The notes below the pieces were generated by a model. That model ran no database searches. It saw only the letters and a list, made by a program, of their open reading frames with translations, and was not told where the DNA came from. A program made the translations under genes and the position numbers. 64,000 bases of DNA from Ruminococcus sp. (lineage in GTDB: Bacteria > Bacillota > Clostridia > Oscillospirales > Acutalibacteraceae). The DNA lies in NCBI GenBank assembly GCA_017411385.1, contig JAFQQF010000013.1, positions 40,412-104,411 of the forward strand. Direction: 5' to 3'. Of the stretch, positions 1,831-44,364 are shown in pieces. Positions within the stretch are counted from its first letter, which is position 1; each line of letters begins with the position of its first letter.

Positions 1831-1861
1831 GAAATATCAGTTATCAACAACGATAAACAAC

Positions 1862-1899: not shown

Positions 1900-1958
1900 C
1901 TTTGTTCAGAACATGAATATATCCCTTTGCAGCAGGAGTTTAGCAGAGATATAAAATT

Positions 1959-1990
1959 AACCCCTCTGCATTTTATTTTGCAGAGGGGTT
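1959..1990 (-). terminator. Terminator of the two-gene dockerin operon
   Basis: Perfect stem AACCCCTCTGCA/TGCAGAGGGGTT; on the minus strand it is followed by TTAATTTTAT. It sits 12 bases beyond the stop of the 571-residue dockerin protein. Confidence 0.8.
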
Positions 1991-2001
1991 AGCCTGAGAG
2001 T

Positions 2002-3717: not shown

Positions 3718-3722
3718 AATAG

Positions 3723-16780: not shown

Positions 16781-17885
16781 TTATTTGGTTGCTTCTACAA
16801 CATCTGAGTATACTACAAAAATCTCACCTGTGGCGTTATCCTTGTACTGAACATAAGCTCTTGCTACCCATGTATCGCCTGTTGAAATATTTTTCTTTGT
16901 CCAGGTGTAAGCACCCTCAGCAACCTTGTATGAATCAGAAGGAATTCTGTTGTATACGCTGGCATCTGCTGTACCTACAACGAGGTTTTCGCCTGTGTAA
17001 TTCACCTTGTTTGTTGCAAGAATACCTGCTGTGATGTAGGTGATGCCAAGCTCCTCTGCAGGAACAGACCAGCTGTAGTAGAATATGTTTTTGGTTTCCT
17101 CCGTTATTGTATCAATTAAATCAAGATTAACCACAATCTGATAATCAATAACAGTATTGGTGTCAACAAATACAGCTTCAACCACCATATCCTTTGTGGG
17201 ATAGATGATATAAGTGCTGTTGTAGCTTCTGATTTCGCCGTCAATAAGCCAATATGCAAACTTCTTACCTGCAGGTGCCTTGTCGGCTGTCAGGGTTAGC
17301 TTGTACTTGGAACGATAATTACCGTCAGCATCGGTATCACCAACGCCCTTACCGCCGATGATAGATATCTCGTGGTAAGTTTCCTTCATAACCCATACAG
17401 CTACAACAGTTACATCATTGCCTGCTGCAATAGCTGCCTTAATCTCTGCCTCAGTCATACTCCAACCTGTGAAGTCATAGCCAACCTGAGAGGGATTTGC
17501 AGGGAAGAATATGCTGTCGCCTGCTGCATAATACTGCATATCCAGAATCTGACCGGAACCGCTGTACGCCTTATCATTCATAAACATAACAGAGTTAAGT
17601 CCGATATAGTCTGTAAGATACAGAGCCTTGATGTGGTCGTTACCGGATGTAATAAAGCTGTAGGTATATTCCTTTGTGAGAACCTGACCGTTATCAGCAT
17701 TAATCCATCCGATGAATTCCTTGCCGGAAATTGTGTTTGCAATAATTGATACACTTACGCCGATGGGAGCCTTAGAATTGAAGTAGCTAAGACCCTGTGC
17801 ACGATAATCACCGCCATCAATGGAAATCTTGAAGCCTGTACCGCTTACGACATCAATAACAAGGGAACCTGTTGTAACAACAATG
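16781..17885 (-). other. C-terminal region shared with secreted amylase
   Basis: Codes for about 366 residues starting near TTGSLVIDVVSGTGFKISI. It aligns end to end with 58591-59688, roughly 55-60% identical by eye, including GQILDMQYY, KKFAYWL and the closing YSDVVEATK. Candidate surface-attachment or assembly region common to both proteins. Confidence 0.7.
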
Positions 17886-20800
17886 GGAACCATTATTCGT
17901 TTATACTGTGCCGTGATAATAAGGTCAGAGGTTACAATATCGAAGGTCTTGTTCCAGCCCGTGAAGATGTAACCGCTTAACTCAGGTGCCGTGGGCGCCT
18001 GTGCTCCTTCTCCGCTCTTGACTATCTGTTCTGAGAGGATGTTTCCGTACTTATCAACAAAGATTACAGTATGAACAACATCGGGAAGCTCGGGAAGCTC
18101 AGGTTCGGGCTCATCGGGATCATCGGGATCATCGGGATCAACCTCGTCACCTGTAGAGGGAACATCAGGCTCGTCGGGGGTTGTGCCGGGATTGGGGTCA
18201 ACCTCATCGCCTGTGGAAGGATTATCGGGGATAACAGGCTTGTCGGGAGTAATTTCGTCATCTGTTGAATCAGAAAGCTTCTCAACAACCAACAGATTTG
18301 TTTCTGTATCAAAGATAAATCTGTAGATACCGCCTGTTGCAATAATTGTGCACTTGCCTGACTCGGTAATCATTGTGAGTCCTGCAGTTGTGTCAAGGAA
18401 GGTGCTGTTTGCAGAATAGATAACTCCGCCGTAGTTGATATCGAAGGTGTATGTACCCGCCTCGATTCTGACAGTAGTCTTGTAAACAGAACCCTCTGTG
18501 TTTGTCATTTCAGTGCCTTCTTCTGCAAAGGCACCGTTGAGTGTAACTGTCTTCTTATACATAGCAGTTACAGTAATAGATTCAGTAATGTAGTCGATTG
18601 CCTTATCCCAGCCTACGAAGGCATAACCATCACGTACCAATCCCTCGGGGGGTGTGGCTGCACCGCCGTAAGGAACGGTCTGGGTTTCAATCACTGTGCC
18701 GTCAAAGTCTACGAAGGTTACTGTTACTGTATCGGTAACTCTGATAATCTCCAGCATTCTGGTGTCTACGTTGAATCTGAACAGATAAGTGCCACCCTGT
18801 GCTATGAGCTTACAATCGCCTGCAACGTCTGTCATTTCCCAACCGTTGGGAGATGTTGTAACGGTTGTATCCTCGATAGTACCGGCGTTTCCGTACCAAA
18901 CCTCAGACCTGAACACCTTGAAGGTGTACTCGCCTGCTGCAAGGTTGAGAACGTAGGTGTAAACCTTGGGATTATCGGTTCCTCTCATAGGAGCACTGAG
19001 GCCCCAATCGTTGAATGTACCTCTCAGATATACAGCCTCATCACCATACAGAGCAGTGATTGTGGTGTTACCTGTAATGTAGGAGAAGTCTGCACTCCAA
19101 CCTGTGAAGGTGTGTCCTTCTCTCTCGGGTGCGGCAGGAGCCTGAGCTGCCTTGCCGTATTCAACTCTCTGAGTGCTGATGATTGAACCGTCGAAGTCAA
19201 CGAAGGTTACTGTGTAGGAAGGTCCTTTGTAAAGGATTTCGAGCATTCTTGTTTCGGTATTGAAACGGAATGTGTAGGTACCGCCTGTAGCATTAAGTGT
19301 ACAGTCGCCTGCATCCCATACCATCTCCCAACCAATTGCAGAGGTTGCAAGAGTTGAGTTTTCGATTGTACCATTGTTACCATACCATGTATCAAGATGC
19401 TTAATCTTGAACTTATAAGTGTCTGCGCTAAGGTCAAGTGTAGTGGTATAAATATTACCGCCTGCAGGTGCCATTGTGCGACCGGACTCCCAGTCTGTCA
19501 TCTCGCCCATCAAGCTTACTTCGTTCTTAGCAAACTGAGCTGTAACTACTGTATTCTCATAAATCCATGAGAAATCCCTGTCCCAACCTGTGAAGATATA
19601 GCCAGATCTTGTGGGATCTGCAGGAGCGTATGCGGGATTACCGCGTTTTACGTACTGAGTCTTCAGCACTGCACCGTTCCAGTTTTTGAAGGTAACTGTG
19701 TAGGTAGGTGCAACGTAGAGAATCTCCAGCATTCTTGTAGCTGTGTTGAAGCGGAAGGTGTATGTGCTGCCTGAACAGTTGAGTGTGCAGTCGCCTGCAT
19801 CCCAGCTCATTTCCCAACCTACATCAGAAGTATAGGTAGTGGTGTCATCAATCCAGCCGTTGTTACCATACCAGCTGTCGCCCTGCTTAACCTTAAACTT
19901 ATACTGACCGGGAGCAAGATAAATCTTGCCCTGATATGTGGTACCGCTTACAAGACTAAGCTTTGTACCCTGCCAGTCGTTGAAATCGCCCATAATGTAT
20001 ACGCCGTTGTCTGCGTACTGAGCTGTGAAGGTAGTGTTACCTGTGATGTACCAGATGTCGCCGTCCCAACCTGTGAAGATATAACCTGTTCTGGTGGGGT
20101 CTGCAGGAGGAGTAGCCGCTGTACCGTAAGCAACGGACTGTGTTTTCAGCACTGCGCCGTTCCAGTTCTTGAAGGTTACTGTATACATCTTGGGAGTTGC
20201 CTTGTAAACCGCTGTTACTCTCAGAGGAGCAATAACGTTTGTAAAGTCCATATCCCAACCTGTCCATACGTAGGTATAACCGTCGTCAGCAGGTCTTGAA
20301 AGTGTAACATTGGGAGCTGTTGCAGAACCGCCGGGCTCAACAACCTCAGTCTTGAGGACTGTGCCGTCCCAGTCAACAAAGGTTACCTTGAACTCACTGC
20401 CTACGTATACAACCTCAAGCATATGAGTGGAGATTGTGTAAGTGAAGATGTAGGTGCCGCCGCCTGCAATGAGAGTACAGTCGCCTGCAAAAGCATCCAT
20501 CTCCCAACCAACATCGGAGGTGGTGATGGTTGTATCTGCGATTGTGCCCCAGTTACCGAACCAGTTGCCGTTGTCAACAACCTTGAACTGGTAGGTACCT
20601 TCACTAAGCTTCATCTGAAGTGTTACCTTATCGCTGTTGCCTGTAACAAGGAAGGGAGAAGCTGAGGGGTTCCAGCCGTTGAATGTACCTGCAAGAGATA
20701 CAGAGCTTGCAACGCCTGCCATATACTTGGCTGTAACTACAGTTTCACCTGTGATATAGGAGAAGTCTGTATCCCAGCCTTGGAAGATGAAGCCGTCCTT

Positions 20801-23800
20801 CATAGGTGCCTCGGGCTCAGAAGCCGCTGCACCGTACTCAACTTCCTGAGTAGAGAGAATTGTGCCGTCAGAGTCAACAAACATTACGGAATACTTGTTG
20901 ACTGTCTGTGTGTAGGTAGCAGTTACTACAAGGTCTGCCTTAACGTTTGTGAAGTCCTTATCCCATCCCTTGAAGGTGTAGCTGTACTGAGCGTCACCCA
21001 GTCTTACGGGGTCTGCAGGAGCCTTGGCGGAGTTGCCGCCTGCTACTGTCTGAGTTGAAAGAACTGTGCCGTCAAAGTCCTTGAATACTACCGTGTATTT
21101 CTCTGTGGAGTGGAATACCTCCAGCTTGTTTGTAGCAACATTGAATCTGAATGTATAGGTTCCGCCTGTAGCATTGAGGTAAATATTACCCAGTGCAGGG
21201 TCAGTGCGAAGCTCTATACCTGTGGATGATGTTACTGTTGTTGTGTCAAGAATTGTACTTGCACTTGTGTACCATATATCATTCTGGAGAAGCTTGAACT
21301 CGTAATTGCCTGCCTCCAGATTGAGGGTTACTGCGAATACGTTGCTTGAGCCATCTCTTGTCATACTGGTGTCAAGTGCCCAATTGCTCCAAGAGCCTGC
21401 AAGGTAAAGCTGATTATCCTTGTACTGAGCTGTAACAACAGTATTCTTTGTAATGTAGTCAAATTCCTTATCCCAGCCTGTGAAGATATAGCCAACTCTT
21501 ACAGGGTCAGAGGGAGCCTGAGCAGCCTCGCCGTACTCAACCTCCTGAGTATAAAGAACTGTACCGTCAAAGTCTGTGAAGGTTACTGTGAGCTTTGTGT
21601 CATCCTTCAGGTAAACAGCAGTGATAACTGTGTCGCCTGTGATGTTTGTAAAGTCTTTATCCCATTCGGAGAAGATATAGCCGCCTACCTCGGGAGCTTC
21701 GGGGGCAGTAGCGTCTGCACCAAGCTTTACTGTCTGAGTAGAAAGCTCGTTGCCGTCTTTATCCTTGAATACTACTGTGTATTCAATGGGTGTATACAGA
21801 ACCTCCAGCATCTTGGTTGCTGTATTAAATCTGAATACATACTTACCGCCTGAAGTTGTAAGTGAGCAGTTCTGGGCATCAATAATCATTTCCCAGCCAA
21901 CTTCGGAGGTAGCAAGGGTTGTGTCTAAGATATTACCTGCGTTACCATACCAGTTGTCGAGATTTAAGAGCTTGAAGAAGTATCTGCCCTCGGGGAGAGT
22001 TAACTCATAGGTTACCACATCGCCGTTTTCAGCAGAGGTCATTGTGATACCCTCAGCCCAGTTGTTGAAAGAGCCGTAAAGGTAAACTGTGTTGTCCTTG
22101 TACTGTGCTGTAACAGTTGTGTCCTCTGTGATGCTTGCAAATGCCTTATCCCAGCCTGTGAACACATAGCCTACTCTTGAAGGAGATGCAGGAGCAACAG
22201 CAGATTTTCCGTATCTTACGTACTGAGTAGAGAGCACCTTGCCGTCGTAATCTACAAAGACTACTGTGTACTCGGTTGTATCCTCAACATAAGTAGCTGT
22301 AACTGTGGTGTCTGCCTCAATGCTTGCAAAGGTCTTATCCCAGCCTGCGAAGACATAGCCTTCTCTTGCAGGAGCTTCGGGTGCAACTGCATCTGCGCCG
22401 AACTTCACGCTTTGAGTTGAAATTACTGTGCCGTCAAAGTCCTCAAATGTTACTGTGTACTCAATGGGAGTATACACAATCTCAAGGAATTTTGTATTTA
22501 TGTTGAAATTAAAGGTATACTTACCGCCTGTTGCAATCAGATTACAGTTGCCCACAGACTGGTCAGTTGTCATCTCCCAACCGATGGGAGAGGTTGCAAG
22601 TGTTGTATCTTCAATTGTTCCCTGATTTGTATACCATACATCCTGATAGAGAAGCTTGAAGGGATATGTACCTGCTTTAAGGTCGATTTCAACAGTTACA
22701 ACATCACCGTTTGCTGTGAATATGGTGTCTGTGTGCCAGTCGTTGAAGGAGCCTACCAAGTACACTCTTGTGTCCTTATAAATCGCCTTAACCGTAAGGT
22801 TGTATGTTACATTTGAGAAATCCTTATCCCAGCCTGTGAACTCGAAATTCTCAACTTCAGGCACTTCGGGAGCCTGAGCACCCTCACCTGTGGTAACAAT
22901 CTGTGTATCCAGAACTACATCGTTGAAGCCTAAGAAGGTTACTGTGTAGGTAATCTTCTTCTGGAGATATGTAGCTGTAACCACTGTGTTTGTATAAATG
23001 TAAGAGAAGTCCTTGTTCCAGCCCTGGAAGATGTAGCCTTCACGCTCGGGGTCAGCAGGAGCAGTTGCAGAGTTACCTCTTACAACTGTGTCGGTTTTAA
23101 GAACCTTACCATCGTAGTCTACGAAGGTTACTGTGTATGAGGGAGGAGTAAAGAGCACTTCAAGAGCGTTGGTCTTTGTGTTGAAGTTGAAGGTATAGGT
23201 ACCGCCTGAAGCCTTCAGGATACAGTTGTTATCTCCTTCAACAAGCACCCAACCAGACTCTGAAGTCTTGATGGTTGTATCGTCGATTGTACCCGTGTTA
23301 CCGAACCATGTGGCAATATTAAGAATCTTAAACTGATATGTGCCCTCATTAAGCTCAAGTGTTACGGAAACTATGTCGCCTGAGCCTGTCATTTCTGTGC
23401 TGAGAGCCCAGTCGTTGAAATCACCAGCAAGGTATACAGTATCCTCTGCATACTGAGCGGTAATTGTGATGTCTGCCTGAACATTGGTGAAAGCCTTGTT
23501 CCAACCGATGAATACATAGCCTGCACGAACAGGGTCAGAAGGAGCAGTTGCATCATTGCCTCTTACAACTGTGTCGGTTTTAAGCACCTTGCCGTCGAAG
23601 TCCACGAAGGTTACTGTGTATGAGGGAGGAGTAAAGAGCACCTCCAGCATACCTGTCTTCTTGTTGAAGTTAAAGGTGTAGGTACCGCCTGATGCTGTGA
23701 GAGTACAGTCGCCTGCATTCTCTGTCATTTCCCAACCTGTTGCAGAGGAGGTTGTGGTTGTGTCCTCAATGTTTCCATCGTTACCCAGCCACTTAACTGC

Positions 23801-26800
23801 ATTGAGAATCTTGAAGGTATATGTACCTGCTGAAAGCTCAAGAGTTACGGAAACTGTGTCACCTGAGCCTGTCATAACTGTGGTCTTTTCCCAGTTATTG
23901 AAGGAGCCCAGCAGGTAAACAATATCCTCAGCATACTGTGCCTTAACGGTAATGTTACCTGTAACGTTTGTAAAGTCTTTATCCCATCCTGTGAACACGT
24001 AGCCTGCACGAACAGGGTCAGCAGGAGCAGTTGCAGAGTTACCTCTTACAACTGTGTCGGTTTTAAGAACCTTACCATCGTAGTCTACGAAGGTTACTGT
24101 GTATGAGGGAGGATTGAACTCAACAACGAGCATCTTTGTGTCTGTGTTGTACTTGAACACATAGGTACCGCCTGTTGCTAAGAGCTTACAGTTATCAGCA
24201 CCCTCTACCATTTCCCAACCAATATCGGAGGATGTAGCAGTTGTATCTTCGATTGTTCCCCAGTTACCGTACCATTTGCCGTTCTGGTCAATCTTGAACT
24301 CGTATGTACCTGCATCAAGGGTGAGAGTAGTTGTATACCAATTATCCTCTGTCTTGGTCATCTCTGTACCGTTATCCCAGTCTGTGAGAGTACCCTTGAG
24401 GATTGCCTTGACAACATCGAACTTAGCTGTAACTGTCAGGTTACCTGTGATGTTTGTGAATTCCTTATCCCAACCTGTGAATACATAGCCATCTCTTGTG
24501 GGGTCGGCGGGAGCCTGAGCACCCTTGCCGTATTCAACCTGCTGAACGTTATATTCAGAGCCGTCCCAGTTCACAAAAGTTACTGTGTACTTGTTCACAG
24601 TCTGGGTAAAGGTTGCCTTAACCGTAAGGTTGCCTGTAATGTTGGAGAAATCCTTATCCCAAGAAGCAAATGTGTAGCTGTACTGAGCATCACCCTGCTT
24701 TGTGGGATTTGCGGGAGCCTGAGCACCCTTGCCGTATTCAACCTGTACTGAAGTGATAACTGTATCATCCCAGTTTACAAAGGTTACGGTGTATTTATTG
24801 AGAGTCTTTGAGTAAGTAGCAGTTACAACTGTGTCGCCTGTGATGTTATTGTATGCCTTATCCCAAGAAGCGAAGGTGTAGGTATACTGAACATCGGCAG
24901 CCTTTGTGGGATTTGCGGGAGCCTGTGCGCCCTTGCCGTACTCAACACTCTGGGTAGAGAGCACCGTGCCGTCCCAGTTCTTAAAGGTAACTGTATACTT
25001 GTTAACTGTCTGACTATATGTAGCAGTTACTGTTGTATCAGCCTGAATGTTGGAGAAATCCTTATCCCAACCGGAGAAGGTGTAGGTGTACTGTGCATCT
25101 GCAGGTCTGCCGGGAGTTGCAGGAGCAGTAGCGGCAGAGCCTTGCTTTACAGCTTCGGTCTTAAGCACGGAGCCGTCCCAGTTCTTGAAGGTTACCTGAT
25201 ATGCATTAGCCTCATGGAGAACCTCAAGGAAATGAGTTTCGGTATTGTAGTTGAAGATATACATACCGCCTGTAGCTGTAAGAGTACAGTTACCATGGCC
25301 GTCTTCCATTTCCCAACCGATGTCTGAGGAAGTAACTGTGGTGTCAACGATTTCGCCGTAATTGCCGTACCATATCTCCTTGTGGAGAATCTTGAAGGTG
25401 TAAGAACCTGCATCAAGCTTCAGAGTTGCTGACACAATGTTGCCGGACTTGGAAGCCATAACGCCTGCGTTCTTATCCCAGCCGTTAAAGTCGCCGAGGA
25501 GGTAAGGTGTTGCATCAACATACTGTGCAGTAACAGTCAGATTACCTGTGATATTGCTGAAATCAGCATCCCAGCCTGTAAACTCGTAGCCTGTTCTTGT
25601 GGGATCTGCAGGGGCAGAAGCGGCAGAGCCGTACTCAACTGTACGAGTTGCCAGAGTCTTTCCGTTCCAATCCTTGAAGGTTACGGTGTACTTGTTGACT
25701 GTCTGATTGTATGTAGCAGTAACAGTAGTGTTTGCTGTAATATTTGTGAATTCCTTGTCCCAGCCCTTGAAGGTATAGGTATACTGTGCAGTTGCAGGGC
25801 GTGTGGGGTTTGAAGGAGCAGTTGCGCTCTCACCGATATTTACAGTGTCGGTTTTGAGAACCGTGCCGTCCCAGTTCTGGAAGGTTACCTTGTATGTATA
25901 AGGAGCGTACAGAACCTCAAGGAAGTGGGTTTCGGTATTGAAGTTGAAGGTATAGGTACCGCCCTTTGCTTTGAGGGTACAGTTGGAGCCTTCCCAATCG
26001 AACATTTCCCAACCGATTGCGGAGGTTGCAAGTGTTGTATCCTCAATAGTACCGGTATTTCCGTACCAGATACCTGTGTCGCCCTTCATAAGCTTAAAGC
26101 CGTAGGAGCCTGCATCAAGGGTAACAGAAATTGTAACGATGTTACCTGTAGTTTCTGTCATGGGTGTGGAGGAAGCCCAACCGTTGAAATCACCCATAAG
26201 GTACATCTGAATATCTTTGTACTGTGCTGTAACAGTTAAATCACCTGTGATGCTTGAGAAGTCCTTATCCCAGCCTGTGAATTCATAGCCCTTAATCACG
26301 GGAGCTGTGGGAGCCTGAGCACCCTTGCCGTACTCAACACTCTGAGTTGAAAGGGTTGCTCCGTCTTTTCCTACAAACTTAACTGTATACTTGTTTGTGG
26401 TTGTACCGAATTGTGCAGTAACAGTCAGATTGCCTGTGATTTTTGAGAAATCCTTATCCCAGCCTGTGAAGGTGTAGGTGTACTGTGCATCTGCAGGCTT
26501 TGTAGGAGTTGAGCCTGTGTAAGAAGCTGCCTTACCATACTCTACCTGCTGTGTTGTCAGGGTTTTACCGTCGTAGTTTTTGAAGGTTACTGTGTACTTG
26601 TTTACAGACTGTGTAAACTGAGCAGTAACTGTGAGATTTCCTGTAATCTTGGAGAAGTCCTTGTCCCAGCCGGAGAAGGTGTAGCTGTACTGAGCATCGC
26701 CAAGTCTTGCAGGAGTAGCACCTGTGTAGGAAGCAGCCTTGCCGTACTCTACAAGCTGAGAGGTAAGCTTTGAGCCGTCCCAGTTATTAAAGGTTACTGT

Positions 26801-29800
26801 GTACTTGTTTGTGGTTGTGGAGTACTGAGCAGTAACTGTCAGGTTGCCCGTAATATTGGTAAGTGCCTTATCCCAGCCCGAGAACGTGTAGGTATACTGA
26901 GCATCTGCTGGTCTTGTAGGAGTAGCACCCGAATACGTTGCTGTCTTGCCGTACTCTACCTGCACAGATGTAAGCTTTGTACCATCCCAGTTTTTGAAGG
27001 TTACTGTGTATTTATTTGTAGTTGTTGAATACTGTGCAGTAACAACAAGGTCGCCTGTAATGTTTGAGAATCCCTTATCCCAACCTGAGAATGTGTAGGT
27101 ATACTGTGCATCTGCAGGTCTTGAAGGAGTTGAAGGAGCTGTTGCACTCTTGCCGTACTCAACGGTCTGTTCTTTAAGTTTTGTGCCGTCCCAGTTGTTA
27201 AATCTTACTGTATACGAACGAACATTTGCAGTAAACTGAGCTGTAACTGTCAGGTTGCCTGTAATGTTATTCAGGGACTTATCCCAGCCTGAGAAGGTGT
27301 AGCTGTACTGAGCGGTAGAAGCTTTTGTGGGAGTTGCACCTGTGTAGGTAGCATTTTTGCCGTATTCTACCTGCTGAGTACCAAGCACTGTGCCATCATG
27401 ATTCTTGAAGGTTACAGTGTACTTATTTGTTGTCTGAGTAAACTGAGCTGTAACGTCCAAAGTTGACTGAACATTAGTGAGGGTTTTATCCCAACCCTTG
27501 AAGGTATAGCTGTACTGACCATCTCCGGGTTTTGTAGGAGTTGCACCTGAATATGTCGCAGTTGCACCTTCCTTAACGACACCTGTCTGAAGCACAGTGC
27601 CATCCCAGTTAAAGAATGTTACTGTATATCTGTCGGGGTCGTAATCAACAACAAGTCTTTTTGTAGAGGTGTCGAACTTGAAGGTATAGTCACCGCCGAA
27701 CACACTGAGAGTACAGTCGTCGGCATCTGTATACATCTCCCAACCTGTGGCAGATGTGTTAATTGTGGTATCAACGATTGTGCCGTTGTTACCCCACCAA
27801 GTGCCGTCACGGGTAATCTTGAACTTATATGTACCGGGTTCAAGGTGAACTTTAACACTTGCAACGCCATTTGACTCTGTCATAACAGTGCCAGCCCATG
27901 TGTTCATATCACCCATAAGGTAATACTGAATATCCTTGTAGGTTGCAGTAACGGTCTGGTTAGCGGTTACATTTGTATACGTACCGCTCCAACCTGTAAA
28001 CTCATAACCTGCTCTGGTAGGATTTGAGGGAGCAGTTGCGTTTGCACCGTGGTTAACAGTTCTTGTAGCCAAAACCGTGCCATCGTGATCCTTGAAGGTT
28101 ACTGTATATGTATTGATAGCAAAGCTGGCCGTTGCAGTAGTCTGGTCCTGAACCGTGATAGATGTGCTTGCAGAATTTTTATTCGGCGAGCCTGCATATG
28201 TACCTCCGAAGGTCCAGCCTGTGAAGTGATAGCCTGTATTTGGTGTTGCGGTAATTGTTACAGACTTATTATAGTCATACAAATTTTTGCCGGAAGGAGA
28301 AACTGTACCGCCTGAACCTGCAGATACAGTAAGACCTGCATAGAAGTTAGCCTGTGCTGTAACACTAGAAGTAGGCTTGATAGTGATTGAAGTAGAATTC
28401 GCGTTGCCGGAGGTAATGGTGTAGGAACCTGAGAATGTCCACTTATTAAAGCCGTTTCCTGAATCAGGACTTGCTGTAAAGGTTACTGTACCGCCGGAAC
28501 CGGGAGTGATGTATGTAGTGCTCTTGGAAACAGAACCCAACACACCCCAGTTCTGGTTAACAGTCATTTTATACTGAGTACCGAAACTCGCCTTACAGGT
28601 AATTGCCGCACCATTAGAAATAGGCTGAATGGTAATAGATGTACTGGAGGTAGAGCCTGAAGTAATCTTATAGTCAGTATTCAGGGTACCACCGGAGATA
28701 GTCCAGCCTGTGAAGTAGTAACCTGTTGAAGCAGTAGCAGTTGATGACTTTGCACCGCTATAGGTAGTTGAGCCGCCTGTGCTGGAAACACTACCGCCTG
28801 TGCCTGCAGAGAAGGTAACCTTACCTGTATTTGCAGCAAACGTAGCCTTTGCAGTTACATTGCCTTTAACTGTCAGCGTAGGCTTAAGAGCAGTAGTACT
28901 GCTGAGTGAGCCTGAACCCGAGGTAACCGCCCAACTGGACAGATGATAACCTGTCTTGGGTGTTGCAGTAAGAGTTGTGGTCTTACCATAATACACAGAT
29001 GTAGAGCCTGCTGAAACTGTACCATAAGAGGTAGAGTTTGTCTGAACAGTTACTGTATAAGGTCCGTTAAGCTGGAACTTCGCATACAGGGTCTTTGCTG
29101 AACCATCATTTGTATAGGTATATGTAGAACTTGTGCTTGTAGCAGATGTAGCAGTAGTAGAGGTAAACCAACCCTTAAAGGTATAACCTGTTGCTGCTGT
29201 CGCGGTCATAGTAACAGATGTACCCTTTGCAGAACTGATACCTGTACCGGAGGTAGAGCTGCTTTTAGAGCTTGCAGTAGCACCGGATACATTATAGCCG
29301 GAAACCTTTACCGTACCTCCTGTGGTACCTGTTGAGTAGGAACCACCGCCCGAAGACTGATAACAGGCATATGCTGTCTGAGTAGTATTGAGAGTTGTGC
29401 TCTTTGTAATATTGCCTGTTCCTGTTGAAGAGAACACATGGGTACCGCTCAGGTTTGCAGTTATAGAGTACACACCTGTTCTGTTATCACACCAAGGAAT
29501 ACGCTGTGAAACACTTTCTGTGGTGCTTTCTCCCCAGTTTTCACTGGCAGAAAGAATACCCAGCTCAGTACAGCCATCCCATTGGGGCATACTGACATAG
29601 TACAGATTATCTCTGATGAGCGTCATCTGATAGGTTGTTGAATAGGAACCGTGACCTATCATAACCTGTGTGACAGCACCTGTCATTGCATTATTGGTGT
29701 CATCATAGTAGAACGCTGTTCCGCTTGATACGTTCGCACCAATATCTGCCAATTCAACAGACGCGCCTGTTTCTGCTTTATCCACGCTTGCCGCACCTAC

Positions 29801-29878
29801 TGTAGGCATAGCAATAGTAAGCATAGACAAAAGCATACATAGAAGTAATACTATGCTGGTTATTTTCTTCCAAGCCAT
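16781..29878 (-). CDS. Giant secreted protein: 14 X25-like modules and ~30 B-repeats
   Basis: 4365 residues in one unbroken frame. Signal peptide MAWKKITSIVLLLCMLLSMLTIAM... (cleavage near VGA, residue 28), then ETGASVELADIG, a motif also placed after the signal peptide of the amylase at 58591. Residues about 50-145 are an unrecognised beta-rich domain; about 150-590 are divergent InlB-type repeats rich in Ser/Thr/Gly. From about 590 to 3870 come about 29 Listeria-Bacteroides B-repeats (YTVTFKNWDG...F.GWDKDF) alternating with 14 modules of about 100 residues like the pullulanase X25 or E-set starch-binding fold (MGDFNGW...WYGN.GTI.DTT...GWEM...CTL..GGTYTF.FN). An acidic proline linker (about 3872-3935), one more B-repeat and a C-terminal region (about 4000-4365) shared with that amylase complete it. 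No catalytic domain, dockerin, LPXTG or SLH motif is seen. Likely role: a long surface fibre binding starch; binding itself is inferred. Confidence 0.85.
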   Translation of the reverse strand: MAWKKITSIVLLLCMLLSMLTIAMPTVGAASVDKAETGASVELADIGANVSSGTAFYYDDTNNAMTGAVTQVMIGHGSYSTTYQMTLIRDNLYYVSMPQWDGCTELGILSASENWGESTTESVSQRIPWCDNRTGVYSITANLSGTHVFSSTGTGNITKSTTLNTTQTAYACYQSSGGGSYSTGTTGGTVKVSGYNVSGATASSKSSSTSGTGISSAKGTSVTMTATAATGYTFKGWFTSTTATSATSTSSTYTYTNDGSAKTLYAKFQLNGPYTVTVQTNSTSYGTVSAGSTSVYYGKTTTLTATPKTGYHLSSWAVTSGSGSLSSTTALKPTLTVKGNVTAKATFAANTGKVTFSAGTGGSVSSTGGSTTYSGAKSSTATASTGYYFTGWTISGGTLNTDYKITSGSTSSTSITIQPISNGAAITCKASFGTQYKMTVNQNWGVLGSVSKSTTYITPGSGGTVTFTASPDSGNGFNKWTFSGSYTITSGNANSTSITIKPTSSVTAQANFYAGLTVSAGSGGTVSPSGKNLYDYNKSVTITATPNTGYHFTGWTFGGTYAGSPNKNSASTSITVQDQTTATASFAINTYTVTFKDHDGTVLATRTVNHGANATAPSNPTRAGYEFTGWSGTYTNVTANQTVTATYKDIQYYLMGDMNTWAGTVMTESNGVASVKVHLEPGTYKFKITRDGTWWGNNGTIVDTTINTSATGWEMYTDADDCTLSVFGGDYTFKFDTSTKRLVVDYDPDRYTVTFFNWDGTVLQTGVVKEGATATYSGATPTKPGDGQYSYTFKGWDKTLTNVQSTLDVTAQFTQTTNKYTVTFKNHDGTVLGTQQVEYGKNATYTGATPTKASTAQYSYTFSGWDKSLNNITGNLTVTAQFTANVRSYTVRFNNWDGTKLKEQTVEYGKSATAPSTPSRPADAQYTYTFSGWDKGFSNITGDLVVTAQYSTTTNKYTVTFKNWDGTKLTSVQVEYGKTATYSGATPTRPADAQYTYTFSGWDKALTNITGNLTVTAQYSTTTNKYTVTFNNWDGSKLTSQLVEYGKAASYTGATPARLGDAQYSYTFSGWDKDFSKITGNLTVTAQFTQSVNKYTVTFKNYDGKTLTTQQVEYGKAASYTGSTPTKPADAQYTYTFTGWDKDFSKITGNLTVTAQFGTTTNKYTVKFVGKDGATLSTQSVEYGKGAQAPTAPVIKGYEFTGWDKDFSSITGDLTVTAQYKDIQMYLMGDFNGWASSTPMTETTGNIVTISVTLDAGSYGFKLMKGDTGIWYGNTGTIEDTTLATSAIGWEMFDWEGSNCTLKAKGGTYTFNFNTETHFLEVLYAPYTYKVTFQNWDGTVLKTDTVNIGESATAPSNPTRPATAQYTYTFKGWDKEFTNITANTTVTATYNQTVNKYTVTFKDWNGKTLATRTVEYGSAASAPADPTRTGYEFTGWDADFSNITGNLTVTAQYVDATPYLLGDFNGWDKNAGVMASKSGNIVSATLKLDAGSYTFKILHKEIWYGNYGEIVDTTVTSSDIGWEMEDGHGNCTLTATGGMYIFNYNTETHFLEVLHEANAYQVTFKNWDGSVLKTEAVKQGSAATAPATPGRPADAQYTYTFSGWDKDFSNIQADTTVTATYSQTVNKYTVTFKNWDGTVLSTQSVEYGKGAQAPANPTKAADVQYTYTFASWDKAYNNITGDTVVTATYSKTLNKYTVTFVNWDDTVITSVQVEYGKGAQAPANPTKQGDAQYSYTFASWDKDFSNITGNLTVKATFTQTVNKYTVTFVNWDGSEYNVQQVEYGKGAQAPADPTRDGYVFTGWDKEFTNITGNLTVTAKFDVVKAILKGTLTDWDNGTEMTKTEDNWYTTTLTLDAGTYEFKIDQNGKWYGNWGTIEDTTATSSDIGWEMVEGADNCKLLATGGTYVFKYNTDTKMLVVEFNPPSYTVTFVDYDGKVLKTDTVVRGNSATAPADPVRAGYVFTGWDKDFTNVTGNITVKAQYAEDIVYLLGSFNNWEKTTVMTGSGDTVSVTLELSAGTYTFKILNAVKWLGNDGNIEDTTTTSSATGWEMTENAGDCTLTASGGTYTFNFNKKTGMLEVLFTPPSYTVTFVDFDGKVLKTDTVVRGNDATAPSDPVRAGYVFIGWNKAFTNVQADITITAQYAEDTVYLAGDFNDWALSTEMTGSGDIVSVTLELNEGTYQFKILNIATWFGNTGTIDDTTIKTSESGWVLVEGDNNCILKASGGTYTFNFNTKTNALEVLFTPPSYTVTFVDYDGKVLKTDTVVRGNSATAPADPEREGYIFQGWNKDFSYIYTNTVVTATYLQKKITYTVTFLGFNDVVLDTQIVTTGEGAQAPEVPEVENFEFTGWDKDFSNVTYNLTVKAIYKDTRVYLVGSFNDWHTDTIFTANGDVVTVEIDLKAGTYPFKLLYQDVWYTNQGTIEDTTLATSPIGWEMTTDQSVGNCNLIATGGKYTFNFNINTKFLEIVYTPIEYTVTFEDFDGTVISTQSVKFGADAVAPEAPAREGYVFAGWDKTFASIEADTTVTATYVEDTTEYTVVFVDYDGKVLSTQYVRYGKSAVAPASPSRVGYVFTGWDKAFASITEDTTVTAQYKDNTVYLYGSFNNWAEGITMTSAENGDVVTYELTLPEGRYFFKLLNLDNWYGNAGNILDTTLATSEVGWEMIIDAQNCSLTTSGGKYVFRFNTATKMLEVLYTPIEYTVVFKDKDGNELSTQTVKLGADATAPEAPEVGGYIFSEWDKDFTNITGDTVITAVYLKDDTKLTVTFTDFDGTVLYTQEVEYGEAAQAPSDPVRVGYIFTGWDKEFDYITKNTVVTAQYKDNQLYLAGSWSNWALDTSMTRDGSSNVFAVTLNLEAGNYEFKLLQNDIWYTSASTILDTTTVTSSTGIELRTDPALGNIYLNATGGTYTFRFNVATNKLEVFHSTEKYTVVFKDFDGTVLSTQTVAGGNSAKAPADPVRLGDAQYSYTFKGWDKDFTNVKADLVVTATYTQTVNKYSVMFVDSDGTILSTQEVEYGAAASEPEAPMKDGFIFQGWDTDFSYITGETVVTAKYMAGVASSVSLAGTFNGWNPSASPFLVTGNSDKVTLQMKLSEGTYQFKVVDNGNWFGNWGTIADTTITTSDVGWEMDAFAGDCTLIAGGGTYIFTYTISTHMLEVVYVGSEFKVTFVDWDGTVLKTEVVEPGGSATAPNVTLSRPADDGYTYVWTGWDMDFTNVIAPLRVTAVYKATPKMYTVTFKNWNGAVLKTQSVAYGTAATPPADPTRTGYIFTGWDGDIWYITGNTTFTAQYADNGVYIMGDFNDWQGTKLSLVSGTTYQGKIYLAPGQYKFKVKQGDSWYGNNGWIDDTTTYTSDVGWEMSWDAGDCTLNCSGSTYTFRFNTATRMLEILYVAPTYTVTFKNWNGAVLKTQYVKRGNPAYAPADPTRSGYIFTGWDRDFSWIYENTVVTAQFAKNEVSLMGEMTDWESGRTMAPAGGNIYTTTLDLSADTYKFKIKHLDTWYGNNGTIENSTLATSAIGWEMVWDAGDCTLNATGGTYTFRFNTETRMLEILYKGPSYTVTFVDFDGSIISTQRVEYGKAAQAPAAPEREGHTFTGWSADFSYITGNTTITALYGDEAVYLRGTFNDWGLSAPMRGTDNPKVYTYVLNLAAGEYTFKVFRSEVWYGNAGTIEDTTVTTSPNGWEMTDVAGDCKLIAQGGTYLFRFNVDTRMLEIIRVTDTVTVTFVDFDGTVIETQTVPYGGAATPPEGLVRDGYAFVGWDKAIDYITESITVTAMYKKTVTLNGAFAEEGTEMTNTEGSVYKTTVRIEAGTYTFDINYGGVIYSANSTFLDTTAGLTMITESGKCTIIATGGIYRFIFDTETNLLVVEKLSDSTDDEITPDKPVIPDNPSTGDEVDPNPGTTPDEPDVPSTGDEVDPDDPDDPDEPEPELPELPDVVHTVIFVDKYGNILSEQIVKSGEGAQAPTAPELSGYIFTGWNKTFDIVTSDLIITAQYKRIMVPIVVTTGSLVIDVVSGTGFKISIDGGDYRAQGLSYFNSKAPIGVSVSIIANTISGKEFIGWINADNGQVLTKEYTYSFITSGNDHIKALYLTDYIGLNSVMFMNDKAYSGSGQILDMQYYAAGDSIFFPANPSQVGYDFTGWSMTEAEIKAAIAAGNDVTVVAVWVMKETYHEISIIGGKGVGDTDADGNYRSKYKLTLTADKAPAGKKFAYWLIDGEIRSYNSTYIIYPTKDMVVEAVFVDTNTVIDYQIVVNLDLIDTITEETKNIFYYSWSVPAEELGITYITAGILATNKVNYTGENLVVGTADASVYNRIPSDSYKVAEGAYTWTKKNISTGDTWVARAYVQYKDNATGEIFVVYSDVVEATK
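18071..18265 (-). repeat. Acidic Pro/Asp/Glu linker with 9-base tandem repeat
   Basis: Encodes the linker of the giant protein. A 9-base unit, ATCATCGGG in plus-strand orientation, is tandemly repeated near 18114-18145 and gives DPDDPDDP; PSTGDEVDP is encoded twice. The unit length keeps the frame if copies are gained or lost. Confidence 0.75.
18270..27940 (-). repeat. X25-like / B-repeat array
   Basis: Protein-coding array of 14 X25-like modules of about 95-105 residues separated by one, two, four or seven B-repeats of about 60-72 residues. The block of seven B-repeats follows the first X25-like module (about 26230-27640). Copies differ in sequence, but a 99-base stretch is identical at 23049-23147 and 24015-24113, exactly 966 bases apart, indicating a recent duplication or conversion of a two-unit block. 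Confidence 0.85.
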
Positions 29879-29959
29879 AGAATCCTCTCCTTCTCTCTGA
29901 TTTATGCTATTTTACAAAAGACTATACTTTTACGCATAATAGCATATTATACATATTAT

Positions 29960-30146: not shown

Positions 30147-31844
30147 CTACAAAGGCTTGTGTTGCGCTTTTCCCTCACCGTCAATCTCAAAAACAGAGTC
30201 ACAGTATTTGAGCATAGACCTGCGGTGAGTAATGATAAAACAGGTTTTGTCGGTTTCTGCTGTGAGCCGCTCAAAAATCCTTGCTTCTGTATTTTCGTCA
30301 AGTGCTGAGGTTGCCTCGTCAAGTATAAGCACAGGGCGGTTTCTGAGGATTGCCCTTGCAATGGCTATTCGCTGAGCCTGTCCCTCGGATATACCTCCCG
30401 CCTTCTCGGAAAGGGGGGTATCCAAGCCATTGGCACATTTTCTCACAAACTCATCTGCACAGGCAATTTCAAGCGCTTTCCACATCTGCTCATCGGTTGC
30501 GTCCTTGTCTGCTGTAAGCAGATTACTTCGGATTGTACCCGAAAGCAGAGTGTTTCCCTGAGGCACATAGGATATGAATCGTCTTGAATCGGGGGATGCC
30601 AATTCTTTCTTGCCGTCTGCAATATACGAAACCTCTCCGTAATCAGCCTCAATGAAAGAAAGCAAAAGCCTGATAAAGGTAGTCTTTCCTGCTCCTGAGC
30701 TTCCTACTATACCTACTCGCTCTGAGGGTTTGACACAAATTGAAACCGAATCCAGCACCTTTTCGCTCTCGTAGGTAAAGCTTACATCCTTAACCTCCAA
30801 GCCAACCCTTTCAGGTATGTCCTGTCTTCCCTCGGACTTTTCCTCGGGAAATTCGGTAATCTCTCTGAGTCTTCTTGCAGAAACAATGGTAGAAAACGTC
30901 TGAGGAATAATACTACCAAGGCTTTTGATGGTACCTTGAAGCAGAGAAACCAACGAAAGAAACAAAGTCATATCGCCGTAGGTATACCCACCCGAAGGCT
31001 GTGAAAGTCTGTATGCACACCAGCTGAACGCCGCAATATAGCCTATGTTATAGACAAGCCCCATAAAAGTACCCATCAAAGAACCAAGCCAAGAGCTTTT
31101 CAGCACAAGGGAGAGCCTTCTGCCTCTTACCTCCTCAAAGAAAGCCTCGTTGCTGTCTTCAAGCTGAAAAGCCTTTGTAACGGGAATATTAAGCAGAGTT
31201 TCCTGAAAAAACGAGTAATACTCGGACTCGCTCTCCCTCAGCTCCTTGCGGAATTTCACAAACTTTCTTCTGTAAACCGCACCTGCAATAGCCCCCAAGG
31301 GACCTACCACCAATCCGATAATCGCCATTACAGGGTCATAGCAGATAAGCACTACCGCAACTATCACAAGCTCCAAAAAAGCCACGACACTTGTAGGCGC
31401 AATGGAAATAATGGCACTTGCAAGATTGTTTACATCCGATGTAAGACGGGAAAGTACATCCGCAGAATGAATCCTGCTCAGGTCGCGCCAACGGCTTCTC
31501 TGAACTCTGTCAAACATTTTTGCTCTGACAGTAAAAGCATATTTCTCGCTGACATAACTTACAAAAAGGTTTGAAGCAAAGGAAAGTCCGAGAGTAAAAA
31601 GCGTTGTGCCTGCCATTATAAGAATATACATCCAGAAAGCCTCTGTATCAAAGCCTGTAGCTGCATCTACCACATACTTGCCTGCTACAGAGGAAACAAG
31701 GCTTACAATCATACTCACCAGATTTAATGCAAGAAAGCCCAGAATATATTTGCGAAAGCTTCTGCCTTGTTTAATTATCCACCATATATGACCTTTGTTG
31801 TTTTTCCACTCCTCTCGGAGTCGGAATTTCTTTTTAGGTGCCAT
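30147..31844 (-). CDS. ABC exporter, fused membrane and ATPase domains (565 aa)
   Basis: Half-transporter of the MsbA/MdlB/LmrA type: a six-helix membrane domain (about 30-310) followed by a nucleotide-binding domain with Walker A GSSGAGKTT, Walker B LILDEATSALD and switch His in ITHRRS. The signature is GISEGQAQR instead of the usual LSGGQ, a change tolerated in some exporters. It probably works as a homodimer since no partner gene is adjacent. ATG 31844 is chosen because AAGGATG precedes it by six bases and contains the alternative upstream ATG. The substrate is unknown. Confidence 0.9.
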   Translation of the reverse strand: MAPKKKFRLREEWKNNKGHIWWIIKQGRSFRKYILGFLALNLVSMIVSLVSSVAGKYVVDAATGFDTEAFWMYILIMAGTTLFTLGLSFASNLFVSYVSEKYAFTVRAKMFDRVQRSRWRDLSRIHSADVLSRLTSDVNNLASAIISIAPTSVVAFLELVIVAVVLICYDPVMAIIGLVVGPLGAIAGAVYRRKFVKFRKELRESESEYYSFFQETLLNIPVTKAFQLEDSNEAFFEEVRGRRLSLVLKSSWLGSLMGTFMGLVYNIGYIAAFSWCAYRLSQPSGGYTYGDMTLFLSLVSLLQGTIKSLGSIIPQTFSTIVSARRLREITEFPEEKSEGRQDIPERVGLEVKDVSFTYESEKVLDSVSICVKPSERVGIVGSSGAGKTTFIRLLLSFIEADYGEVSYIADGKKELASPDSRRFISYVPQGNTLLSGTIRSNLLTADKDATDEQMWKALEIACADEFVRKCANGLDTPLSEKAGGISEGQAQRIAIARAILRNRPVLILDEATSALDENTEARIFERLTAETDKTCFIITHRRSMLKYCDSVFEIDGEGKAQHKPL

Positions 31845-31893
31845 ATTGAACATCCTTTATATCTGAATAAGTTAGCAAAACACTATTATAAAT

Positions 31894-33587: not shown

Positions 33588-35213
33588 TTATTCTGTTTCT
33601 ACAGGTAAAGAAAGTATTTTTTCATCTTCCTTTGCAATGGTTTTCTTAACCGCAAAGGCTATACCCTTCTCCACAAGGTTAATCACCAGAATCATCAAAG
33701 ATACCATAGCAGTACCCTCTATGAAGGACTGGGATTCAAGCTGAGGAATCATCAAAGAAAGGGGCATTATGCGGAAATTCGTAAGGAAGGAAACCGCTGA
33801 AATTGTAATCATAGCATTTACAAAGAAATAGCTATACATTTCTACAATGGTAGCTCTTGTACTGGGGATGTAAACCGAGAACAAAAGCTTCATTCTGTTG
33901 ATACCCAGAGTATCTGCCACGTCCTCCAAATTCGGATTAAACTTGGAAAGTGAGTTGTAAGCAAGCAAGTAGGGAGAAGAGAAAAAGTGAGCAATGTTTA
34001 CAACCACAAGAATAAAGATTGTGCCGTAAATAGGAACATTCTTAAAGGTCATAACGTAGGAAAGACCGAGAACAATACCGGGAACCGCAAGAGAAAGCAT
34101 ACTGATAAAGTGCAAAGCTCCGTTTGAAATAGCTTTTTTGCTTCTTGAGGTAACATAAGCCGAAAAATAAGAAAGACAAGTACCTACCAAAGATGTAAGC
34201 AATGCAACAGCAACCGAGTTTACAAAGTACTGTCCTATACCTGAGGAAAGAAGTTTCTTTGCTGTGTCAAGGCTTAAAGACATATCAATGGGATACTGCT
34301 TAACAAAGCTTAAAAGCACAAAAGCAAAAATCGGCAGACAAAGCAGAATAATTACAACAGCAAAGATAATATAAACCGCAATATCCCTGCCCTTGTTATC
34401 CTCAATCTGATAAGCCTTTGTAACCGTACTGCCTGAAGCATTGATACCGCTGTTCTTCAAGTCCATGATAAACGCAACCATTGCAGGAAGAAGCAATACA
34501 ACACCGACTACCGCACCGCCTGAGAAGTTCATCATACCGATAACCTCGCGGTACATATATACAGGCAGAGTCATCTGGGTTCCGCCTGTCATAAGGGATA
34601 CACCGTAGTCAGTAAAAATCATAGTGAATACAGCAAGAACGGAAGAAACAATTGTGCGGCGCATTGAAGGCAGAGTAATGGACACAAACTGTCTGAACTT
34701 GGACATACCAAGCACACCTGCCGCCTCATAAATTGTAAAATCCTCATACTGGAAAGAGTCGTTGAACATCAGAAAGGATACAGGGAATGAATAAAGCACA
34801 GAGCCCATAATAATACCCTTGTAGCCGTAAAGTCCGATGTTAAGTCCCAAAAGGTTTGTCACAATGCCGTTGTCACCGAAAAGGAACACAAGTCCCATAC
34901 CGTGAGATATACTGGGAATCAGCATAGGAATTGTGAAAAGCACAACAAAAAAAGATTTAAACTTAATGTTGGAACGGTTTATCATGTAGGCAAGAAAGAA
35001 GGAAAGCACCACAGATATAGCCGTTGCAATTACGGTAGTAATTACCGAATTCTTGAGCATGGGGAAAAACTGAGCAGAAGAAAAAACCTCTGAAATATTG
35101 TTCCCTCTGATACTGCTGAAAAGGTAGATAATTGGCAGAACAACAGAAACCAGCAGGTATGCAATCAACAGATACTTTGCCCCGAAATATCCTTTGTTCT
35201 TATTTATCTTCAT
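33588..35213 (-). CDS. ABC importer permease, two fused membrane domains (541 aa)
   Basis: Twelve-helix permease made of two BPD-type halves, as in FbpB, ThiP or aminoethylphosphonate permeases. Each half carries an EAA-type loop (YEAAGVLGMSKFRQFVSITLP and DVADTLGINRMKLLFSVYIP), the contact site for the ATPase. ATG 35213 is preceded by GAGG and overlaps the ATPase stop by 14 bases. Third gene of the SBP-ATPase-permease operon. The substrate could be iron, a phosphonate or a similar small anion; sequence alone does not decide. Confidence 0.88.
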   Translation of the reverse strand: MKINKNKGYFGAKYLLIAYLLVSVVLPIIYLFSSIRGNNISEVFSSAQFFPMLKNSVITTVIATAISVVLSFFLAYMINRSNIKFKSFFVVLFTIPMLIPSISHGMGLVFLFGDNGIVTNLLGLNIGLYGYKGIIMGSVLYSFPVSFLMFNDSFQYEDFTIYEAAGVLGMSKFRQFVSITLPSMRRTIVSSVLAVFTMIFTDYGVSLMTGGTQMTLPVYMYREVIGMMNFSGGAVVGVVLLLPAMVAFIMDLKNSGINASGSTVTKAYQIEDNKGRDIAVYIIFAVVIILLCLPIFAFVLLSFVKQYPIDMSLSLDTAKKLLSSGIGQYFVNSVAVALLTSLVGTCLSYFSAYVTSRSKKAISNGALHFISMLSLAVPGIVLGLSYVMTFKNVPIYGTIFILVVVNIAHFFSSPYLLAYNSLSKFNPNLEDVADTLGINRMKLLFSVYIPSTRATIVEMYSYFFVNAMITISAVSFLTNFRIMPLSLMIPQLESQSFIEGTAMVSLMILVINLVEKGIAFAVKKTIAKEDEKILSLPVETE

Positions 35214-35985
35214 ACTTACCTCGTCCTGTGTATCTGGAAAGGTCCTGATACTTCTTGTCAAGCTGTTCTACAACGAATTCTTTAATATAGTCGTTTGCAG
35301 GATTCTGATAAAGCTCCAAGGGAGTAGCCATCTGCTCAATGTTGCCTTCGCTCATAACCATAATACGGTCAGAAAGGAAGAACGCCTCCTCCTGGTCGTG
35401 AGTAATGAAGAGCATTGTTGCATTAAACTTCTTCTGCAGAGATTTAAGCTCAGCCTTCATAATCTCGCGGTTTGTAACGTCAAGAGCAGAGATAGGCTCA
35501 TCAAGAAGAATAACATCGGGATTCATAGCAAGGGTACGGGCAATGGCAACTCTCTGTTGCTGACCGCCTGAAAGCTGATGAGGACGCTTGTGCATCTGGT
35601 CGGTAAGACCTACCTGCTCCAGAGTTCTCTCGGCAATTTCCTTTGCCTGCTTCTTTGTGTCCTTGCGAAGTGTCAGTGCATACATAACGTTCTGCAAAAC
35701 CGTCATATTGGGGAACAGTGCATAGTTCTGGAACACAATTCCCATTCCTCTGTCAAAGCTTGCAAGAGAGGAAATATCCTTGCCACCCTTGATAATCTCA
35801 CCGGAGTCTGCCTTTTCAAGACCGATGAGAATTCGAAGAAGCGTGGTCTTACCGCAGCCTGAGGGACCGAGGATAGAGAGGAATTCACCCTCCATAAGAT
35901 CAAAGCTTATATTGTTGAGAACAGTTTTGCCTGCATAAGATTTGTTCAGATTTTTTACTGAAAGCTTAGTGTTTAATACTTCCAT
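35200..35985 (-). CDS. ABC importer ATPase, FbpC/PotA type (261 aa)
   Basis: Walker A GPSGCGKTT, Q-loop GIVFQNYALFP, signature LSGGQQQRVA, Walker B VILLDEPISALD and switch His in FITHDQEEA are all present. At 261 residues it lacks the long C-terminal TOBE regulatory domain of full-length FbpC or PotA. It overlaps the binding-protein gene by 13 bases and the permease by 14, showing tight translational coupling. Confidence 0.92.
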   Translation of the reverse strand: MEVLNTKLSVKNLNKSYAGKTVLNNISFDLMEGEFLSILGPSGCGKTTLLRILIGLEKADSGEIIKGGKDISSLASFDRGMGIVFQNYALFPNMTVLQNVMYALTLRKDTKKQAKEIAERTLEQVGLTDQMHKRPHQLSGGQQQRVAIARTLAMNPDVILLDEPISALDVTNREIMKAELKSLQKKFNATMLFITHDQEEAFFLSDRIMVMSEGNIEQMATPLELYQNPANDYIKEFVVEQLDKKYQDLSRYTGRGKYEDK

Positions 35986-36953: not shown

Positions 36954-37029
36954 TTTGGCACCTCTTTCTACGTATTTTGTGTTTTCAAAAATCAAAAACC
37001 GTTTCAGAAACCACTTTAAAAAACACATT

Positions 37030-44226: not shown

Positions 44227-44364
44227 AGTCTTCTTTCCTTTCATTTTTTGCCCGCACAAAACAGTGCAGTTATTCAGCCTCATTTTATCATAAACTTTAC
44301 TCGTTTACAATAGATTTCCGTCAGTATTTACAAATAATTTTTGCTGAAAACTGTAAAAACATAT

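Follow-up and report, generated by a model that had tools for sequence, protein, structure and literature searches.

A 13-kb reading frame encodes an array of X25-type modules and B-repeats

The window, a 64,000-nucleotide stretch of DNA from a gut Ruminococcus sp., carries on its minus strand an intact frame of 4365 codons (16781-29878) that starts with ATG. The gene and its product have the following features:

16781..29878, minus: gene for the giant protein of 4365 aa, with orthologous arrays in four more genomes of this genus
29887..29892, minus: AAGGAG, ribosome-binding-site-like, read from the sequence, 8 bases before the ATG
29789..29878, minus: signal-peptide-like N-terminus, residues 1-30, by eye
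29279..29791, minus: N-terminal domain, residues 30-200, about 170 aa, without a confident Pfam match
28109..29281, minus: divergent InlB B-repeat region (Flg_new_2), residues about 200-590, from the Pfam scan
18260..28111, minus: continuous array, residues 590-3873, with 14 X25/CBM48-type modules and 29 of the 31 B-repeats, by profiles
18074..18259, minus: acidic, proline-rich linker, residues 3874-3935, read from the protein sequence
17165..18073, minus: C-terminal B-repeats 30-31 and the region after them, residues 3936-4238, by the B-repeat profile
16784..17164, minus: C-terminal domain of about 125 aa, candidate attachment domain, common to other large proteins of the genus

The original prediction had described, giving no strand, one intact 13-kb frame with 14 X25-like modules and about 30 InlB-type B-repeats, and this architecture holds. 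A profile built from 12 of the protein's own modules detects 14, 13 of them at 106-160 bits and the fourteenth at 50 bits; a profile made from the modules of a homologous fibre alone (genome G069 of the same genus) recovers the identical 14. A corresponding B-repeat profile, also derived from repeats of this protein, yields 31 copies scoring over 15 bits, and a Pfam scan places Flg_new in 31 stretches. That scan also returns AMPK1_CBM in 12 stretches, X25_BaPul_like in 8, Flg_new_2 (the divergent InlB repeat) in 15, as well as CBM48 and CBM53; with the first 651 residues scanned separately, Flg_new_2 appears in 6 stretches. In 100 shuffled copies of the protein neither profile gives any match above 20 bits, ruling out a chance artefact, and the presence of homologues of the same design in other genomes makes an assembly artefact unlikely.

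The array is tiled almost without linkers, X25-type modules and B-repeats covering 3283 residues out of 3284 (590-3873). Neighbouring X25-type modules are always separated by one to seven B-repeats, with no directly adjacent pair. Their start-to-start spacing is 161-162 residues where one B-repeat lies between them and 224-236 where there are two, and the two widest gaps, of 367 and 573 residues, hold four and seven. The modules are listed below, with W/K/W denoting W10, K37 and W44; all residue numbers within modules are those of module 11.

27629..27925, minus: module 1, residues 652-750, W/K/W kept
25895..26206, minus: module 2, residues 1225-1328, W/K/W kept
25202..25504, minus: module 3, residues 1459-1559, W/K/W kept
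24104..24403, minus: module 4, residues 1826-1925, W/K/W kept
23621..23920, minus: module 5, residues 1987-2086, W/K/W kept
23138..23437, minus: module 6, residues 2148-2247, W/K/W kept
22460..22765, minus: module 7, residues 2372-2473, W/K/W kept; groups with one module in each of three other genomes (weak support)
21782..22087, minus: module 8, residues 2598-2699, W/K/W kept; orthologous in five genomes
21098..21406, minus: module 9, residues 2825-2927, W/K/W kept, N47 and W63 changed; orthologous in five genomes
20393..20701, minus: module 10, residues 3060-3162, W/K/W kept; orthologous in five genomes, two copies in G077
19703..20002, minus: module 11, residues 3293-3392, W/K/W kept; the most conserved module among those compared, at 84% mean identity across five genomes
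19217..19519, minus: module 12, residues 3454-3554, W/K/W kept; orthologous in five genomes
18728..19033, minus: module 13, residues 3616-3717, W/K/W kept; orthologous in five genomes
18260..18541, minus: module 14, residues 3780-3873, W/K/W, N47 and W63 lost in every one of the five genomes, nine further conserved columns retained throughout

The modules match alpha-glucan-binding families

When Pfam models are scored over the whole protein, AMPK1_CBM reaches 235.8 bits (cut-off 26.8; E 3.8e-71), X25_BaPul_like 107.2 bits (cut-off 27; E 4.7e-31), CBM48 59.3 bits (cut-off 22.4; E 4.9e-16), and CBM53 45.1 bits (cut-off 27.6). All four stand above their cut-offs, in agreement with the starch-binding look first ascribed to the modules. 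Among known structures, the best match of the module profile is the glycogen-binding module (CBM48) of AMPK beta (1z0n, 3.3e-4), a single, regulatory module of eukaryotes. Matches to the pullulanases 5ot1 and 2wan are weak (0.033 and 0.051), as is that to 7rpy (E 0.4), which we take, from its title 'Cohesin-containing protein', to be the X25 pair of Sca5.

The AMPK alignment pairs the three module residues, W, K, and W, with chain residues 33, 59, and 66, the latter two lying 26 and 33 residues beyond the first. By this spacing they fit W100, K126, and W133 of AMPK beta1, which excerpts of two studies report to contact, or to be needed for, glycogen or cyclodextrin (PMC2642990, PMC4032982). 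The alignment spans the first half of the module only, and we therefore claim no equivalent of N150. The distance of seven between K37 and W44 equals that between K654 and W661 in the excerpted account of Sca5 (PMC9112005). The triad is kept in 13 of the 14 modules and all three residues are absent from module 14. Judged by family and residues, membership of an alpha-glucan-binding type is well supported, and in 13 modules we predict a site of CBM48/X25 type with an AMPK-like W-K-W.

The B-repeats, whose Flg_new matches total 572.5 bits over the 31 stretches, resemble those of InlB-type proteins and match the internalin B structure 2y5p at 2.5e-6. Unlike internalins, the giant protein has no leucine-rich-repeat family in the Pfam scan, scores far under the cut-offs of the NCBIfam internalin models, and sets its B-repeats between modules of glucan-binding type.

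Starch-degrading genes and related modules elsewhere in the genome

Two other genes of the window bear on the modules:

58591..63525, minus: paralogous 1644-aa GH13 alpha-amylase with 4 X25-type modules and 6 B-repeats; C-terminal domain shared with the giant protein, 54% identical
39709..44283, minus: 1524-aa protein with an MGH1-like GH domain, CBM26 and dockerin, and with X25 and CBM35 below cut-off (amylosome-type component)

A 498-aa GH13 protein also lies in the window, and a second amylase with four X25-type modules is found elsewhere in the same genome, at a contig end. The expectation that X25 modules normally come as one or two copies was too narrow, given the four on the window's amylase and the four reported in excerpts for Sca3 (PMC9112005).

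Cohesins give three matches in this genome, clustered on one other contig (L010, C7). One of the proteins combines X25, PT, and cohesin and another CBM26, PT, and cohesin; by this composition both would be Sca-like scaffoldins. A phmmer search with the X25-cohesin protein returned mostly low-complexity matches to its repetitive linker; R. bromii Amy10 was matched through CBM26, and the search was uninformative on X25 residues. Within the genus, 149 of 161 genomes have cohesins, among them all six with giant arrays (below), so the cohesin background is general and the giant proteins are an addition to it. On the minus strand of the window, three dockerin-bearing genes stand in a row (2002-3717, 3723-5708, and 5840-7639), in which Pfam matches nothing else at E<=0.01, and another (51885-53609, minus) carries Big_3; these four proteins are possible amylosome clients.

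X25-type modules and B-repeats are also carried by peptidoglycan hydrolases with CHAP and/or GH25 domains and choline-binding repeats or F5/8 (L001, at the start of contig C33 of this genome; L004, at the start of C28; and L047, in genome G077), and X25 is found on metallophosphoesterase-CBM26-dockerin proteins of this genome. X25 is thus not tied to amylolysis. A CotH-kinase-type protein (L005, at the start of C53 of this genome) combines four CBM26 stretches with X25-type modules and B-repeats.

X25 modules on cell-wall hydrolases hint at contact with envelope polymers. Together with a glycogen-binding module as the best structural match, this would suit a protein whose target is alpha-glucan of the cell itself or of its neighbours, either glycogen or a glucan exopolysaccharide, and which acts as a matrix or a cell-to-cell linker. 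The GH13 amylases, CBM26, dockerins, and cohesins nearby fit external starch better, and we consider such a target improbable.

Giant arrays are conserved within the genus

We searched 161 genomes of the same genus, 33 of which gave a match at E<=1e-25, and found giant arrays in at least six. The frames measure 7258 codons in G069, 6832 in G088, 5940 in G020, 5286 in G077 (where the frame runs off the contig), 4376 from stop to stop in the window, and 3633 plus 988 in G081, as two frames on one contig. At more than 20 bits they hold 18, 22, 17, 18, 14, and 13+3 X25-type modules, respectively. The G081 contig is that of Ruminococcus sp. isolate RGIG3836, from roe deer caecum. A scan of named genomes with the whole protein gave two loci, of which the one in RGIG3836 is a true relative; the other encodes a B-repeat protein with 0 X25 and 9 B-repeats by our profiles. 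At E<=1e-8, 5 of 394 genomes sampled from the order match (four of the genus, counting this one, and a fifth, from another family, that has one module), as do 2 of 398 from the phylum (this genome and one half-module); neither sample contains an array outside the genus at that threshold.

In a tree of 105 modules, modules 8-14 each pair with one module of G020, G088, G077, and G081, in identical order along the proteins, except that G077 has two counterparts of module 10. Support for these groups is 98-100, from a bootstrap that had not yet settled; the alignment behind the tree is short in columns relative to its rows, and 36 forks are left open. Module 7 joins modules of G020, G088, and G081, weakly supported (93/68), and module 1 clusters with module 1 of G020 and module 2 of G088. 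The N-terminal half of the arrays shows lineage duplications, such as modules 3-7 of G088, and most of the G069 modules branch separately. Across five genomes the C-terminal modules are orthologous and collinear, with low dN. For modules 7-13, dN is 0.04-0.37 and dS 0.54-3.09, with one pair lacking a dS value (module 11 against G088: dN 0.06, dS 1.04), and for module 14 dN is higher, at 0.29-0.59; with dS near saturation and two pairs lacking it, dN/dS is to be read qualitatively only.

Conservation extends to genes upstream of the fibre:

30147..31853, minus: gene of ABC exporter type immediately upstream, with a 78% identical orthologue next to the G088 fibre
33588..37028, minus: ABC transporter of three genes, with syntenic orthologues (82-97% identical) upstream of the G020 and G088 fibres

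This comparison covered G020, G088, and G077, the contigs of G081 and G069 ending near or inside the array on the upstream side. We found no orthologue of the exporter in the G020 stretch beside the fibre, and none of these ABC genes in the 2.1 kb fetched upstream of the G077 array, which instead hold another gene with the shared C-terminal domain.

The N-terminal heads differ. In the protein of the window and that of G020 the head is a domain without a confident Pfam match; in G088 it is an X25-type module, and in G077 (L040:1-15858, minus) a GH13 amylase 66% identical to the amylase of the window. The claim that there is no catalytic domain is right for the giant protein itself, in which the Pfam scan finds no catalytic family at E<=1; given the G077 head, it is not a rule for the family. 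Directly adjacent X25 modules are present in the amylase paralogue and, at a single place per array, in the fibres of G020, G088, G077, G081, and G069.

The last module lacks the W-K-W triad

The 105 modules, from six fibres, leave 100 for comparison once the five orthologous last modules are set aside. Of these 100, 99 retain W10, 98 retain K37, and 94 retain W44. One row is a truncated module with gaps at all three positions, and every other departure (one at K37, five at W44) belongs to the divergent G069 fibre. None of the three residues survives in the five last modules (0/5 for W10, K37, and W44). There are 21 columns at least 90% conserved in the 100 modules. Nine of them (G32, F36, A76, G78, G79, Y81, F83, T89, and L92) are kept in all five last modules and four (G5, L29, Y34, and T55) in two to four of the five; W10, K37, W44, N47, W63, and L74 are lost in all five, L74 becoming I, F, or M. 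The remaining two, V103 and F105, border on the next B-repeat.

Since the last modules keep nine conserved columns without the triad, the triad seems not to be needed for the fold. The same modules have lost N47, W63, and L74 and are thus more diverged in general, so that as a natural control for the triad they would be suggestive rather than clean. Module 9 and its orthologues keep the triad with W63 changed, and with N47 changed in three of the five. By its residues, module 14 is predicted to be non-binding.

These patterns bear on whether the X25-type modules might be mainly structural, serving as rigid spacers in a long S-layer-like filament or surface stalk that binds glucan hardly or not at all. 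The nearly linker-free packing with B-repeats would suit such a role, as would the X25 modules that wall hydrolases and phosphoesterase proteins of the same genome carry and the statement, in excerpts of PMC9112005, that single Sca5 X25 modules do not bind. The joint loss of N47, W63, and L74 with the triad could also mean that the triad belongs to a general structural pattern. Set against this are the nine columns that the five last modules keep without the triad, the triad that module 9 retains through changes at N47 and W63, and the occurrence of like modules on amylases. A mainly structural role strikes us as distinctly unlikely.

The C-terminal domain is a candidate attachment domain

By eye its start looks like a signal peptide, and the giant protein is probably secreted. 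Its N-terminal domain (residues 30-200) is matched in 19 of the 161 genomes at E<=1e-4; we tried and rejected a known CBM as its identity, the best match being 0.054 for one member of six.

The C-terminal domain has relatives in 18 of the 161 genomes, with up to 14 copies per genome (contig-end partial copies included). In 18 frames picked for carrying it, the domain ends within one residue of the frame end in 16, at 5 residues in one, and at 268 in one. Its hosts include amylases (that of the window and L045), GH25 proteins, LRR/C-type lectin proteins, and GH20/CBM26 proteins. Carriers are found at 16784-17164 and 58594-58977 of the window (both minus) and at L025, L026, L027, L030, L039, L040, and L044, with further loci at L045, L046, L047, L048, L049, L050, L051, and L052, often at contig ends. 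We regard the domain as new. It has no confident match in Pfam or NCBIfam; single members of 17 reach DUF7202 at 0.0078 and choice_anch_V (NCBIfam) at 0.007, which we took as chance and not as identification of a known anchor. PDB matches (8prj at 3.7e-7, and relatives) were set aside as sums of repeated stretches of 3.6-5.8 bits each in one alignment.

The Pfam scan (E<=1) finds no dockerin (Dockerin_1), cohesin, or SLH family in the giant protein, and an LP-x-T-(G/A/N/S) motif occurs nowhere in it. This profile, along with the lack of a named anchor in the C-terminal domain, would be consistent with a protein that is secreted and released, a soluble multivalent binder that coats or cross-links starch granules much as excerpts of PMC5814915 propose for cell-free amylosomes in R. 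bromii. The C-terminal domain, found on very different proteins and at the frame end in 16 of 18, looks rather like an attachment or sorting part, and we judge release to be a somewhat unlikely alternative. The domain is a reasonable candidate for an attachment domain, through which the protein may be anchored at the surface.

A putative multivalent starch-binding rod

The reading we prefer, with a probability of about 0.6, is that the giant protein is a secreted, extended, multivalent alpha-glucan binder that holds starch by avidity. Thirteen CBM48/X25-type modules with W-K-W sites would be spaced along a rod of InlB-type B-repeats, and many weak sites would jointly hold granules or released chains. 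With about 50 domains, the rod might measure some 150-250 nm if extended, an estimate from typical domain sizes. The C-terminal domain would hold the protein at or close to the cell, in the company of the amylase with which it has modules and C-terminus in common; there it would also neighbour dockerin and cohesin proteins. The head would be exchangeable, taking the form of the domain without a confident Pfam match (this protein and G020), of an X25-type module (G088), or of a GH13 amylase (G077).

Several observations weigh against this reading. The AMPK match covers the first half of the module and the match to 7rpy has an E-value of 0.4; the last modules have diverged beyond the triad, at N47, W63, and L74. 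In excerpts of PMC9112005, single Sca5 X25 modules fail to bind and two are needed, and the X25s of the giant protein are split by B-repeats. In addition, X25 is found on wall hydrolases and phosphoesterase proteins, the giant protein has no recognised anchor, the giant array is known from at least 6 of the 161 genomes, and the upstream synteny is absent from the 2.1 kb of G077. The original prediction of a multivalent starch-binding surface fibre is partly upheld, and in its main line: the alpha-glucan type of the modules is backed by their families and residues, by the amylase paralogue, and by the amylase-headed homologue, but for the surface there are a signal-like start seen by eye and the new C-terminal domain common to other large proteins, and no dockerin, cohesin, SLH family, or LPXTG-type motif.

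Capture of insoluble starch by Gram-positive bacteria of the gut is known mainly from R. bromii amylosomes, and the nearest known counterparts of the giant protein are Sca5, Sas20, and Sca3 of that species. SusE and SusF of Bacteroides are outer-membrane proteins of another phylum. Excerpts of PMC9112005 describe R. bromii Sca5 and Sas20 as having X25 pairs that bind starch, Sca5 with two X25 regions that bind as adjacent pairs, two cohesins, and a sortase signal. The giant protein is like them in having X25-type modules with W and K ligand residues in a Ruminococcus that has cohesin and dockerin proteins. Unlike Sca5, it has 14 single modules split by B-repeats, so that no two directly adjacent X25s could share one site, and its modules match the Sca5 structure weakly; the cohesin, dockerin, and C-terminal LPXTG-type sortase signal of the R. 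bromii amylosome are all absent from it. Sca3, in the same excerpts, likewise places several X25-like modules on one non-catalytic protein, but it is a cohesin scaffoldin with four predicted modules in which one tryptophan only is conserved. SusE and SusF have two or three X25 modules in one starch-binding protein, and their single modules bind (excerpts of PMC9112005); they differ in their few modules and in having no B-repeats. Judged from its domains, the giant protein would thus be a new, extreme form of multivalent starch-binding protein, of a kind already known. We found no description of a giant X25/B-repeat protein in the titles and abstract beginnings listed by searches of the open PMC library.

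If the preferred reading is true, some 13 predicted sites on one rod, in an order kept across genomes, would be an extreme avidity solution without cohesins, and the kept order raises the question of graded affinities versus register along the rod. Module 14, likely non-binding, and the natural amylase-headed version offer ready comparisons. Should the shared C-terminal domain be an anchor, it would explain the display of a class of large Ruminococcus proteins. We put forward tentatively, as a doubtful but possible extension, that these proteins adhere to starch by a device other than the cohesin-dockerin amylosome. They would be giant rods bearing 13-22 glucan-binding modules, each conserved individually, and an exchangeable head, held to the cell by the new C-terminal attachment domain, which, being common to amylases, peptidoglycan hydrolases, and lectin/LRR proteins, would be one display system for many surface proteins. 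Another large carrier of that domain in the same genome, on contig C43 (L044:871-11646, minus), is a protein of 3592 codons with five CBM26 stretches and GH20.
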